Part shown: piece after piece, positions 2,497 to 61,025 of the stretch | Position numbering within the stretch: the first letter of the stretch is position 1 | Layout: the number at the start of each line of letters is the position of its first letter | Source of the DNA: Solibacillus sp. R5-41 | Lineage (GTDB): Bacteria; Bacillota; Bacilli; Bacillales_A; Planococcaceae | Direction of reading: 5' to 3' | DNA length: 64,000 bases | Assembly: GCF_002736105.1 (NCBI RefSeq) | Contig: NZ_CP024123.1 | Span: 3,154,001 to 3,218,000, forward strand | Translations under genes and position numbers: made by a program | Notes under the pieces: model-generated | Databases searched by the model: none | The model's input: the letters and a program-made list of their open reading frames with translations, nothing else | What the model was told of the DNA's origin: nothing

Positions 2497-2738
2497 ATCA
2501 ATTACGCCTCGGCTAACTCTTGTCCAGATTTTTTTTCGAGCAAGCTCAAAAAAACTGTGACATCCACCGGAGCCTTTGAACCAACACGATGTTGGTCACT
2601 CAGGCGTTGCCGCACGACGCGGTTTTATTAGCCTGAGTTCCCCTATTCAGTGGGGGTTCACCCCAACTGAATCATGTTAAATGAATACGTATTCATTATA
2701 TCATATTTTCATTTTTAGAACCTCGTGGAATTTCTTAA
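2497..2738 (-). repeat. Dispersed modular intergenic repeat, copy A
   Basis: Left end ATCAATTACGCCTCGG, then GTCCAGATTTTTTTTCGAG, TGTGACATCC, hairpin CCAACACGATGTTGG (2581-2595), CTCAGGC...GCCTGAG (2599-2636) enclosing GCCGC/GCGG, hairpin around CAGTGGGGGTT, and a GGAATTTCTTAA tail. The right half of the first palindrome is degenerate. Orientation is given as the strand on which the element follows the 3' end of a gene (here sdhB). See the other copies B-G. Confidence 0.85.
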
Positions 2739-7350: not shown

Positions 7351-7588
7351 AAAAAAAGCGACCTTCCATGTTCATGGAAAGTCGCCGTCAAGACAAATAA
7401 TAAAGTTAATTGTTCTTTTTGGATAGCTCTCCAGAACATGCGCTCTGACAATTTTACATTTCTTAAATGCAAAACCAGCAATTTGTGCGAACAATACACA
7501 ATTCACTTCGGCAGTCTCCCCTTTCGAATGCATTCAACGGAATTGTCCTTCCTCATGCATCGTACTTTTGAACACTGCGCCTCTATCG
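7351..7588 (-). promoter_or_regulatory. Lysine riboswitch (L box) with terminator
   Basis: On the minus strand the leader starts with P1 GATAGAGGCGC (about 7577-7587), passes GAGGAAGGAC, GGGGAGACTGCCGAAGTG and GAGCGCATGTTCTGGAGAGC, and closes P1 with CTATC (7422-7426), as in known L boxes. The expression platform at 7351-7386 is a strong hairpin (GGCGACTTTCCAT / ATGGAAGGTCGC) with seven T. It should switch off the downstream ACT gene when lysine is bound. Confidence 0.93.
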
Positions 7589-7622
7589 ATTGAAATTATT
7601 AAATTAGTCTCACTCTAGCATA

Positions 7623-25848: not shown

Positions 25849-26039
25849 ATCAATTACGCCTTGGCGTAATTGCGTCCAGATTTTTTCGAGCTAGCTCGAA
25901 AAGCTCCTCTTAAAAATCTGTGACATCCGCCGGGGGCTTTAATTTGATTCAGCCTGGGTTTGAACCCCCTCTGAAATCAGTGAATATTTCGTATTCATCC
26001 ACACCTATATAAGCGGAAGATTTCTGTTGAAGCAAATTA
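25849..26039 (-). repeat. Dispersed modular intergenic repeat, copy B
   Basis: Left palindrome AATTACGCC-TT-GGCGTAATT (25852-25871), then GTCCAGATTTTTTCGAGC, GCTCGAAAAG, TGTGACATCCGCCGGGG, arm AATTTGATTCAGC, and the tail GTTGAAGCAAATTAA. The final TTA (26037-26039) is the complement of the dbpA stop codon TAA. Confidence 0.88.
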
Positions 26040-27488
26040 AAATGACTTACTATTCGCGATATGCACTTTTAAATGCTTGCCTTTTATTGGTGTTGTTTTC
26101 ATTGCCTTTAACACTAAATGACCTTTGCCATTCAATATTTCAATAAAGGTTGATGTATCCAAAATCGTAATGATTCCAATATCATCTCCAGTCATTCCTG
26201 GTATTTTGGCAATTGTCCCAACAAAGTCTACTGCACGCAATTTCTTCTTTTTACCGCCGTTAAAATAGAGCTTCGTAATTTGTGCATTCACTTTGGCACT
26301 TTTCGATTTTTTCTTAATCGGCATGGCGTCCATTTTCTGTTCAAATGCATCCTGGTTGGCCGCTACTGCCTCTGCTGTTGGAAGTGGGGTTTTCGCAAGC
26401 TCAAATTGAATAAATTCTTCAATGCCCGCTAAAAATTTATGCTCAAACGGTGTTACGAACGTAATGGCTTTGCCTGATAATCCTGCACGACCTGTTCGAC
26501 CCGTCCGATGAACATAGGCTTCCTTTTCTAATGGTAGATCATAGTTTACAACAAGTGAAATATTTTCAACATCAATCCCGCGCGCAGCAACATCCGTCGC
26601 TACTAAATAACGAAACTCACCGCGCTTATAGTCATCCATTACCATTAAACGGGTAGACTGATCCATACCCCCGTGCAGCTTATCGACACTATATTCTAAA
26701 TCATATAAGTGGTCATGAACTTCATCCACACGATCTTTTGTGCGACAAAAAATAATACAACTATCTGGATTTTCCACAATCATTGCCTTTTTTAATACGG
26801 CAAGTTTCTCGTCCTCTTGTACTTCCATTGCGATATGCTCAATTTTAGGCGCCGTTTGTTGTTCTTGTTGGACTTCGATATCAACGGGCTGCTTCATATG
26901 GCGCAGTGCTAAAGTTTTAATTTCATTCGGCACAGTTGCTGAAAAGAGCATCGTTACACGTTCTTTTGGTAAGTACGATAAAATGGCCTCCACTTGGTCT
27001 AAAAAGCCCATATTCAGCATTTCATCAGCTTCATCTAATACAAGATACTTTATTTTATCTAGCTTTAGCGTTCCTTTTTCGATATGATCTAATACACGTC
27101 CGGGAGTCCCTACTGCAATATGTGTTTTTTGCTTTAGCTCATCCTGTTGATAACGGAATGGCTGTTTTCCATAAAGAGCCGTTGCCTTAATACGTTTATA
27201 GCGTCCAATATTCGTAAACTCTTCCTTCACTTGTACCGCTAATTCCCTTGTCGGTGTTAAGACAAGTGCTTGTGGTTTATTTTCAAGCCATTCAACATTT
27301 TCACAAATCGGAATGGCAAATGCAGCCGTTTTCCCACTTCCGGTTTGAGATTTTGCGATGATATCCTCTTTTTGAAGTGCAATTGGCAGCACTCTATCTT
27401 GAATTTCAGTTGGCTCTGTATAATCTAAATCACCCAGTGCTCGGATGATTTCGTCTGATAAATTAAATTGTTGAAATTGTTTACGCAT
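26037..27488 (-). CDS. dbpA: DEAD-box RNA helicase DbpA (YxiN)
   Basis: ATP-dependent helicase specific for 23S rRNA hairpin 92 in large-subunit assembly. Two RecA domains carry [41 protein letters not shown] and [10 protein letters not shown] in order. The C-terminal part ends with the rRNA-binding RRM that begins [26 protein letters not shown] and closely matches B. subtilis YxiN. The ATG at 27486-27488 has AAAGGAG 6 nt upstream; the track's earlier starts do not. The stop codon is formed by the right end of repeat copy B, and copy C begins only 22 bp upstream of the start. Confidence 0.94.
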
Positions 27489-27510
27489 CATTTGCTCCTT
27501 TTTCTTTATA

Positions 27511-27761
27511 ATCAAATATGCCTCGGCATAATTGCGTCCGGAATCGGCTTTGTGTTGGCACAGGATGTTAGCCTAAGTTCGTCGCATCCATGCGACAACG
27601 GCTAACTGACCTGCATCATGCTGGCCTCCTTTCCGATTCTGTGACATCCGCCGGGGCTTAACTTATTTCAGTAATTGTTTAGATAAACACTGAAAACTAA
27701 CTTAAAATCCATTTTCATCTTACCACTTATATAGGTAGGATACTTCTACTGAAAAAAGTTA
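27511..27761 (-). repeat. Dispersed modular intergenic repeat, copy C (variant)
   Basis: Left palindrome here is ATGCC-TC-GGCAT, a compensated form of the ACGCC/GGCGT seen in copies B and F. The second stem is GGAATCGG/CCGATTC instead of AGATTTTT/AAAAATCT, and its interior is replaced by a nested hairpin (TTAGCC/GGCTAA around GTCGCAT/ATGCGAC, 27569-27608). TGTGACATCCGCCGGGG is conserved. The outer tail arms TTAACTTATTTCAGTA and TACTGAAAAAAGTTAA pair at 15 of 16 positions. The last TTA supplies the LysR stop codon. Confidence 0.85.
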
Positions 27762-28655
27762 AATGTTTGCAATTGCTGGATCGACAATTGCAATAAATTT
27801 CTTTGTCGCTCTTGAAATTGGGACCGATTTCAAATGGACAATCCCTATACTTCGCTTTGGTACTTCTAGTTGTAAACTGACCTCATGTAATATCCCTTTA
27901 TCCAAATAATCTAATGCAAACTCTTTCGTCACACTAGCAACGCCCAAATTGATTTTTGCGAATTCCAACACTAAATCATGTGAACCTAGTTCAAATTCAG
28001 GTGAAATAGTATACCCTTGTTCCTTTAAATAATTCTCTACATAGTTTCGAGAATTCGCTTTTTTTTCTAAAAAAATTAACGGTAACTTCATCAGCATATC
28101 CAAACTAATCGGTTTTTTCGTTAAATTTCGGTATTTTTCACCACAGACGAAAATGTCTTGAATTTCCTTACACGGTAGGACTTGCAATTGCTCATCTACT
28201 ATCGGTAAATTACAAATACCTAAGTCTGCCTCTCCCGATTTTATAAACGCCAAAATTTCAATCGTTGTTCCATTTAAAACCTTTAATTTAATTCCAGGAT
28301 ATTTCACATGAAAAGCTTCTAAATAGGGTAAAAGAAAATAACGCGAAATTGTATCACCTACACCAATTCTTAGCTGACCTGTTCGCAAATTTTTAAATTC
28401 TAAAATTTTTTCTTCTCCGGCATCCAAAATACCAAGAGCGGAATTAACATATTCGTGTAAAAGCTTTCCCTCATTTGTTAATGTAACTCCTTTTGGTGTC
28501 CGATTAAAAAGTAAGGTTTCAAGTTCTTTCTCAAGCTTTGAAATCGTTTGACTGACTGCGGGTTGTGTCATATATAATTCCGCGGCTGCCTTCGAAAAGC
28601 TTTGATTACGACTTACAACATTAAAAATCCGATACGATTCGAGCTTCGCAATCAT
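27759..28655 (-). CDS. LysR-family transcriptional regulator
   Basis: 298-residue LysR regulator. The N-terminal winged helix-turn-helix spans about 5-65 (YRIFNVVSRNQSFSKAAAELYMTQPAVSQTISKLEKEL), followed by a linker helix and a periplasmic-binding-type effector domain (about 90-295; GQLRIGVGDTISRYFLLPYLEAF). It is divergent from the CofE-like gene at 28779, with an ATAA-N7-TTAT element between them, so the neighbour is the likely target. The effector is unknown. The stop codon TAA is formed by the terminal bases of repeat copy C. Confidence 0.9.
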   Translation of the reverse strand: MIAKLESYRIFNVVSRNQSFSKAAAELYMTQPAVSQTISKLEKELETLLFNRTPKGVTLTNEGKLLHEYVNSALGILDAGEEKILEFKNLRTGQLRIGVGDTISRYFLLPYLEAFHVKYPGIKLKVLNGTTIEILAFIKSGEADLGICNLPIVDEQLQVLPCKEIQDIFVCGEKYRNLTKKPISLDMLMKLPLIFLEKKANSRNYVENYLKEQGYTISPEFELGSHDLVLEFAKINLGVASVTKEFALDYLDKGILHEVSLQLEVPKRSIGIVHLKSVPISRATKKFIAIVDPAIANI

Positions 28656-31414: not shown

Positions 31415-31610
31415 ATCAATTACACCTCAGCGGAATTGGATCCAAATTTTTTTGAGAATGCTCAGAAAACCCCTATAAAAATCGGTGAAATCCGCCGGGG
31501 GCATTAGGCCAACACGAATGTTGGTCACTCAGGCAGGGTTTGAACCCCCACTGAATTAAGAGCATATTTAGACGTAACGAAATAGCGGAATTGTGCTGAA
31601 GCAAGTTGAA
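31415..31610 (-). repeat. Dispersed modular intergenic repeat, copy D
   Basis: ATCAATTACACCTCAGCGGAATT, then TTTTTTTGAGAATGCTCAGAAAA, a TCCGCCGGGGGC block, CCAACACGAATGTTGG (31513-31528), AGGGTTTGAACCCCC hairpin, and a GTGCTGAAGCAAGTTGAA tail. Left palindrome is partly decayed. The only copy that lies between divergent genes. Confidence 0.82.
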
Positions 31611-40592: not shown

Positions 40593-40848
40593 AAAAAAAC
40601 CTCGCCCCCTAAAAAAGGGACGAGGACGAGTTTCGCGGTACCACCCTAGTTATTGCAAAAATGCAATCACTTCATTTGAGCTAACGACTCATTACGCCGG
40701 CAATCCTTTCACCAATTTTGGCTCCCGGAAGCTGCTCGCGGGGTGAACTTCATTATGCAATTTGTATGCAAGCTTGCAGTCTCGGCTCACATTTCCTAAA
40801 ACAAATTTCACATAATTACTCTTCCCGGTCAATGCATTTAGTAGTTAT
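40593..40848 (-). promoter_or_regulatory. T-box riboswitch, pheST leader
   Basis: Minus strand carries the T-box sequence AGGGTGGTACCGCG (about 40633-40646) and a terminator at 40593-40625 (CCTCG...CGAGG, then seven T). A TTC triplet at 40745-40747 fits the specifier for phenylalanine. Antiterminator formation on uncharged tRNA-Phe should allow pheS expression. Confidence 0.93.
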
Positions 40849-55000: not shown

Positions 55001-55197
55001 ATCAATTACGCCTCGACTTAATTGTGTCCAGATTTTTTTCGAGCATGCTCGAAAAGCTTCCCTAAAAATTCTGTGACATCCGCCGGGGCTTTAGGCCAAC
55101 ACGATGTTGGTCACTCAGGCGTTGCCGCACGACGCGGCGTTCTTAGCCTGAGATCCTTCTAAACAGTTGGGGTTTGAACCACTGCTGAATCAAGTCA
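55001..55197 (-). repeat. Dispersed modular intergenic repeat, copy E
   Basis: ATCAATTACGCCTCGACTTAATT, GTCCAGATTTTTTTCGAGC and GCTCGAAAAG, TGTGACATCCGCCGGGGC, CCAACACGATGTTGG (55094-55108), CTCAGGC...GCCTGAG enclosing GCCGC/GCGGC, GGGGTTTGAACC, then GCTGAATCAAGTCAG. It has the same middle module as copy A. The TCA at 55195-55197 is the complement of the dUTPase stop codon. Confidence 0.88.
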
Positions 55198-56243: not shown

Positions 56244-56423
56244 GATGTGTGTTAACAAAATTGTAACTCAAATTGATACAGATTTGATTATAAACCGACT
56301 GAATAATCGTTCTATCCATCACTTTTTAATTTTTATCTATCACTTTCTAACTTCTATCATTCACTTTTATCTTTCTTTCCATCAAATTCGCCGTCTGAAC
56401 CAAAAATACAGTCTATATTCCCA

Positions 56424-56500
56424 ATCAATTGTGCTCCTGCCAACTTTTGTCCAAAATTTTTCGAGCACGCTTGAAAAACTTCTCTAAAACAGCTGGACAA
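56424..56500 (-). repeat. Decayed copy G of the dispersed repeat
   Basis: ATCAATTGTGCTC, then TTGTCCAAAATTTTTCGAGC, ACGCTTGAAAAACTTCTCT and CAGCTGGACAA line up with the left half of the other copies. The palindrome is lost and the element is truncated at its right side, where ysdA begins. Confidence 0.65.
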
Positions 56501-60836: not shown

Positions 60837-61025
60837 ATCAATTACGCCTCGGCGTAATTGCGTCCAGATTTTTTCGAGCTTGCTCGAAAAACTCCTATAA
60901 AAATCTGTGACATCCGCCAGGGGCATAACTTGATTCAGCTGTGATTTAAACCCTCACTGAATAAAGTTCGCACTTGGCATTTATCCCAAATTTTAAAAGT
61001 AGGAGATATCTGCTGAATCAAGTTA
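60837..61025 (-). repeat. Dispersed modular intergenic repeat, copy F (best conserved)
   Basis: Perfect 20-bp palindrome AATTACGCC-TC-GGCGTAATT (60840-60859), GTCCAGATTTTTTCGAGC and GCTCGAAAAAC nested inside CAGATTTTT/AAAAATCTG, TGTGACATCCGCC, and outer arms AACTTGATTCAGC (60928-60940) and GCTGAATCAAGTT (61011-61023) that are perfect complements. It lies 70 bp after the dnaI stop and directly before the thrS leader. Confidence 0.9.

Follow-up and report, generated by a model that had tools for sequence, protein, structure and literature searches.

Why should a dispersed repeat begin exactly at the stop codons of the genes beside it? The window analyzed here is a stretch of 64,000 nucleotides, positions 3154001-3218000 of the single-contig 4.28 Mb genome of Solibacillus sp. 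R5-41 (G000), and it contains seven copies of such a repeat, named A to G. An earlier note on this DNA observed that the stop codons of dbpA, a LysR gene and a dUTPase gene appear, in complement, on the forward strand as TTA (26037-26039), TTA (27759-27761) and TCA (55195-55197), and that a repeat copy begins at each of them. These observations are correct. The note went on to propose that the repeat supplies the stop codons, that it always starts at the 3′ end of a host gene, and that its insertion is targeted to stops or gene ends, perhaps through a TTAA-like target. Comparison with related genomes allows these proposals to be separated.

The repeat and its copies

We use sense for the strand of the host genes, which is the window's minus strand, and genes are throughout uncurated open reading frames (ORFs) of at least 80 aa. 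The element proper in copy B spans about 188 nt (25849-26036, minus strand). Its target TTAA occupies 26037-26040 (minus strand), and the TAA at 26037-26039 is the pre-existing stop of a dbpA-like helicase ORF (26037-27515, minus strand). Copy C (27511-27758, minus strand) contains a match to the Bacillaceae-1 RNA family (RF01690; 27557-27624, plus strand), and its target TTAA (27759-27762, minus strand) includes the pre-existing TAA stop of the LysR gene; the relative G003 has CTAA at this place. Copy E (55001-55194, minus strand), which also contains an RF01690 match (55096-55162, minus strand), adjoins the dUTPase TGA stop at 55195-55197. Copy G (56424-56483, minus strand) is a remnant of the sense 3′ half and lies directly after the ysdA stop (56484-56486). 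A start at the 3′ end of the host gene therefore holds for copies B, C and E and loosely for G, but it does not extend to the other three. The target TTAA of copy A (2497-2676, minus strand; target 2677-2680) coincides with no gene stop, copy D (31415-31605, minus strand) follows TCAA in sense and is not at a stop, and the nearest upstream stop to copy F (60837-61021, minus strand) is about 70 nt away. Copies A to E are absent from G003, as is the copy G region (56274-56484), whereas copy F is common to both genomes.

In sense, the element reads 5′-CTTG(N)TTCAGC...GGCGTAATTGAT-3′. Its parts follow the target (T)TTAA in the order 5′ hairpin, internal four-base stretch, block, second hairpin, terminal hairpin and GAT. 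The arms of the 5′ hairpin are CTTG(N)TTCAGC and GCTGAATCAAG, the internal four-base stretch behind it is TTAA in the main type, and the block GCCCCGGCGGATGTCACAG lies 3′ of that stretch. The terminal hairpin, AATTACGCC...GGCGTAATT, precedes the final GAT. Helices at both ends of the consensus give the element a hairpin near each end, and its two ends do not form an inverted repeat. In some copies, one or two Bacillaceae-1 modules follow the 5′ hairpin and precede the block; in simpler copies the 5′ hairpin is short and perfect.

Genome-wide, a 14-base core pattern with at most two mismatches matched 180 places in G000 (93 forward and 87 reverse), compared to 3 for a control. A profile run on the fetched stretches recovered 174 copies, 106 of them with both ends; the copy set derives from BLAST and one pattern and is not exhaustive. 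With one full copy as query (E <= 1e-6), 23 of the 61 genomes searched gave matches, the query's own genome included, and none of those outside the family did. Among the matches listed for an exact 19-mer of the core in the named collection, most were records of Sporosarcina, Solibacillus, Lysinibacillus, Psychrobacillus and Metasolibacillus. In the search for an autonomous parent, a plasmid collection and a phage collection each gave no match, and a search of open-licence papers gave no earlier description of it.

The Bacillaceae-1 matches have a distribution of their own. The G000 genome has 103, and those in the fetched stretches lie nearly all within repeat copies; the window holds a further one at 2581-2647. 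Several others belong to another dispersed repeat (L406, L408, L411, L420 and L427). Bacillaceae-1 appears in Weinberg et al. 2010 (PMC2864571) as a candidate RNA. RF01690 resembles our element in being found as the inner module of many of its copies, and differs in that it also occurs in other G000 repeats and in that the element is far larger. This orphan RNA family is a module that repeat families have in common, and in G000 it occurs mostly as part of dispersed repeats. The window also has an ordinary lysine riboswitch and T-box leader, at 7416-7593 and 40613-40841.

Gene stops pre-date the repeat

The TAA of the stop-associated copies sits in the conserved terminal TTAA, and a repeat inserting in the 3′ end of a gene could in principle create a stop by truncating or extending the frame with these bases. 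The repeat-free loci of G003 contradict this. Over dbpA and LysR, G003 is 89-90% identical to G000 and has neither copy B nor copy C, yet each gene stops at an unchanged codon position, with TAA in both genomes: dbpA ends SKSF* in both, and LysR ends PAIANI* in G000 and PAIANN* in G003. The G003 dUTPase gene ends GGT TAT TGA without the repeat. The ysdA gene ends GTC CAG CTG TTT TAG in G000 and GTG CAA CTA TTT TAA in G003, both encoding VQLF*; the G000 codons, which the earlier note had assigned to a conserved repeat segment, are ysdA coding sequence, and the remnant starts after the stop. The comparison of repeat-free orthologues that the note had itself suggested thus found the same terminal bases and speaks against its claim.

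The same is seen more widely. Among the relatives compared, G003 included, the C-termini of DbpA (27 relatives) and LysR (19 relatives) mostly end at the same position or within a few codons of it; several LysR tails diverge, and none of these genes has the repeat after its stop. Within the G003 sequence that was fetched, the 29 genes with a copy at their stop gave 11 matches, and one of these, a paralogue only 35% identical, was set aside. Of the remaining 10 orthologues, one shares the repeat and nine lack it; eight of these nine stop at the codon used in G000 (7 TAA and 1 TGA), and the ninth is shorter by one codon. In addition, random codon insertion should bring stops in the other frames of the element into use, and the corresponding offsets are almost absent (3 copies). 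This indicates that the gene stops pre-date insertion and that the repeat does not supply them. Stop creation is refuted for dbpA, LysR, dUTPase and ysdA, and as a general account of the coincidence it is scarcely credible.

The empty dUTPase site of G003 reads TGA-ATTGAT-GAG (G003:C1:3165001+66.5 kb). ATTGAT matches the last bases of the repeat, either by chance or as a trace of excision.

Insertion beside an undoubled target

Testing 135 copies in both directions located 40 orthologous sites, and at most of these the presence of the copy differs between close relatives. The most frequent net gap between filled and empty sites is 4 nt (12 of 40), which means that the four bases initially assigned to the end of the repeat belong to the empty allele. 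The other 28 sites are split between 14 with net gaps from -8 to 12 and 14 outside this range; in all, 26 of the 40 aligned within it, the rest being shared copies, indels or rearranged flanks. No duplication of flank or target was found in 99 copies. The element enters immediately 3′ of a (T)TTAA that is already present on its sense strand, and the target is left undoubled. The suggestion of a TTAA-like target has therefore held up: TTAA is present in the empty site, it is not duplicated, and a guide-like stretch inside the element matches it. Taken as one explanation, we consider it probable that the repeat is a family of gene-less mobile elements, with about 180 core matches in G000, that inserts in this manner. 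A MITE of a DDE transposon was rejected as a candidate, terminal inverted repeats and target duplication both being missing.

The variable occupancy also bears on whether the copies are instead regulatory RNAs of 3′ untranslated regions (UTRs), selected at a fixed position after the stop and not mobile DNA. Such a role would fit the compensatory changes seen at 10 of the 32 consensus pairs and the many copies that are co-directional with the upstream gene. However, occupancy of orthologous 3′ UTRs was not seen to be conserved across species among the located sites, copies are found between gene pairs of every orientation, and 80 of 109 lie away from stops. RNA function is likewise not supported by the stems, in which G-U pairs are about as frequent as A-C pairs. 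We regard regulatory RNAs as a quite improbable explanation.

Copies are concentrated at stop codons

A readable 5′ end was available for 109 copies. In 68 of them, the stop of a co-directional ORF (at least 80 aa) is found from -200 to +120, and in 29 this stop falls exactly in the terminal four bases (TAA; once TGA). No other offset occurs in more than 2 copies. Distances from repeat end to stop are thus not random, as the earlier note's reading of the coincidence had required, and G003 repeats the pattern, with 7 of its 29 copies at the same offset. Copies at a stop are nonetheless only about a quarter of the total.

A TTAA target by itself predicts some of this coincidence. Among copies with a TTAA target, 18 of 63 are at a stop. 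This is a 7-fold excess (binomial P 3e-11) over noncoding TTAA sites, of which 4.0% are at a stop; G003, and not G000, supplied this background (1.18 Mb). Within 200 nt behind co-directional genes, the excess of TTAA copies is about 2.8-fold (18 of 41 at the stop where 15.4% would be expected; P 1e-5), and for any NTAA the figures are 28 of 53 against 17.7% (P 8e-9). Targets of stop-type copies include CTAA, ATAA and GTAA. Copies inside an ORF number 0 of 160 in G000 and 0 of 64 in G003.

These figures suggest how a simple rule could produce so striking a coincidence. TTAA contains the stop TAA, and insertion after this TAA in the direction of the gene would leave the protein unchanged, while the opposite orientation would split the stop from its gene. 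If insertions inside genes are lost, survivors would accumulate exactly behind stops and always in the direction of the host gene. The lack of copies in ORFs, together with a stop that stays intact in the gene direction, would explain the orientation and much of the enrichment. The family would then be a clean example of a target sequence and selection hiding insertions behind stop codons. The target and avoidance of coding DNA do not clearly account for all of the excess, because 18 of 63 TTAA copies at a stop is more than the 4.0% that TTAA predicts.

The remainder could reflect active targeting of translation stops or gene ends beyond the TTAA preference, for example through DNA or mRNA exposed at termination. 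The excess within 3′ UTRs and the tolerance of CTAA, ATAA and GTAA at stops are in its favor, but the same pattern can arise if insertions in terminators, in promoters and in untranslated regulatory DNA are selected against. In addition, none of 18 copies from other genera, mostly with a TTAT target, has a stop at +1 (named genomes; copies drawn from the 80 stretches that were listed, out of 120 in the named collection), as expected if the TAA in the target is what matters. The proposal of stop-directed insertion is thus partly upheld, as an enrichment and not as a general rule, since most copies are elsewhere; we consider active targeting unlikely, though not negligible.

An internal stretch complementary to the target

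In 107 copies, the four target bases and the four internal bases form 354 of 428 possible Watson-Crick pairs, and in 5000 shuffles all values fell below this (mean 309, maximum 327). The combination TTAA/TTAA (target/internal) accounts for 45 copies and TTAT/ATAA for 9, and single matching cases are TCAA/TTGA, TTCA/TGAA, TCAT/ATGA, CTAT/ATAG and ATAA/TTAT. The element has an internal four-base stretch complementary to its target, a relation that is weaker in strict register, where covariation over 45 copies reaches significance at the last target base alone (P 0.002). At three sites where the element carries ATAA and the target is TTAT (G000 493833, G000 3299765 and G003 3193865), TTAT is already in the empty allele; each insertion takes its target from the host.

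In the named genomes (L281-L360), most Sporosarcina copies have the target TTAT and the element start CTTC, a guide type that differs from the main type of G000. Two guide types with different targets provide a natural data set for testing DNA-guided target choice.

Discussion

Members of the IS200/IS605 family insert without target duplication and have hairpins at their ends. Our element resembles the non-autonomous derivatives of this family in three respects: it inserts on the 3′ side of a short constant target, which is retained and not duplicated, it has hairpins near both ends, and it contains sequence complementary to the target, if less clearly in strict register. Such derivatives include PATEs and the mini-IS605 and mini-IS606 of Helicobacter pylori. 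The latter two adjoin TTTAA/TTTAAA and TTAT, with the target on one side and short copies 10-20% apart (PMC2993954). TTTAA is also the motif of the TnpB of an IS605-type element (PMC11043419).

The closest parallel for the internal stretch is IS608, which selects its target by base pairing of a guide with TTAC (PMC5934647). Both have four internal bases complementary to the target, but in our element these bases form the far arm of a long 5′ hairpin, instead of lying 5′ of the hairpin. A further difference is that the 3′ hairpin of our element extends to the element end, unlike that of IS608. By description only, the repeats are also like bcr1-bcr18 of Bacillus cereus, which are interspersed repeats of 100-400 bp that show mobile traits and have a TTTAT motif (PMC6542083). 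There bcr1 is described as specific to the B. cereus group, whereas our family is found in Planococcaceae-type genera. An attC-like reading (RYYYAAC...GTTRRRY) was rejected: the second box departs from the pattern, and the internal arm does not form the end of the element.

Unlike the IS200/IS605 derivatives, the family has no known autonomous partner, and G000 has no match to the Y1 transposase (PF01797) or to TnpB (PF07282). Within the genus, 9 of 16 genomes have Y1 matches, with none in the repeat-rich G000, G002 and G015 and one broken copy in G003. The ends of the element do not resemble those of the genus's Y1 elements: at 12 Y1 loci (12 of the 20 matches listed), no repeat ends were found at E up to 10. 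A comparison with REP/RAYT systems meets the same lack of a Y1-type protein in G000. Because neither a Y1 TnpA nor an autonomous element with the same ends was found, we describe the element as working in the manner of IS200/IS605 but do not file it as a member.

Spread by reverse transcription in trans, in the manner of group II introns or SINEs, is another means of moving a gene-less element. The element is structured and compact, makes no duplication and has its target upstream of the insertion, and copy G is a single 5′-truncated remnant; these features would suit such a process. However, the sole RVT_1 match in G000 (G000:C1:3572044-3572892) scores best as the defence reverse transcriptase Drt2, and the similar frequencies of G-U and A-C pairs give no sign that an RNA strand was selected. 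We therefore consider reverse transcription improbable. A group II intron or derivative was rejected as a candidate, the host having no intron reverse transcriptase and its single reverse transcriptase scoring as Drt2.

Based on its likeness to IS200/IS605, the element may have moved as single-stranded DNA, with the internal stretch pairing with the target during insertion and a transposase supplied in trans that has since been lost from the lineage. Among 93 G000 copies, identity to the nearest neighbor has a median of 85% and does not exceed 91%, and the family looks dormant because no copy is more than 91% identical to another and G000 has no Y1 transposase; its enzyme may be lost. It is tempting to speculate, as a tentative possibility, that these are dormant guide-carrying miniature elements whose TTAA guide steers insertion to the TAA stop, a self-programmed safe harbour, and that sister subfamilies with an ATAA guide lose the stop habit. 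The enzyme may in that case be of a kind missed by the Y1, TnpB and reverse transcriptase models.

Five records titled Arthrobacter beigongshangensis (L291, L303, L323, L326 and L351) contain the repeat and have a mean G+C content of 42%. This value is low for the genus Arthrobacter, and these records are possibly mislabelled.
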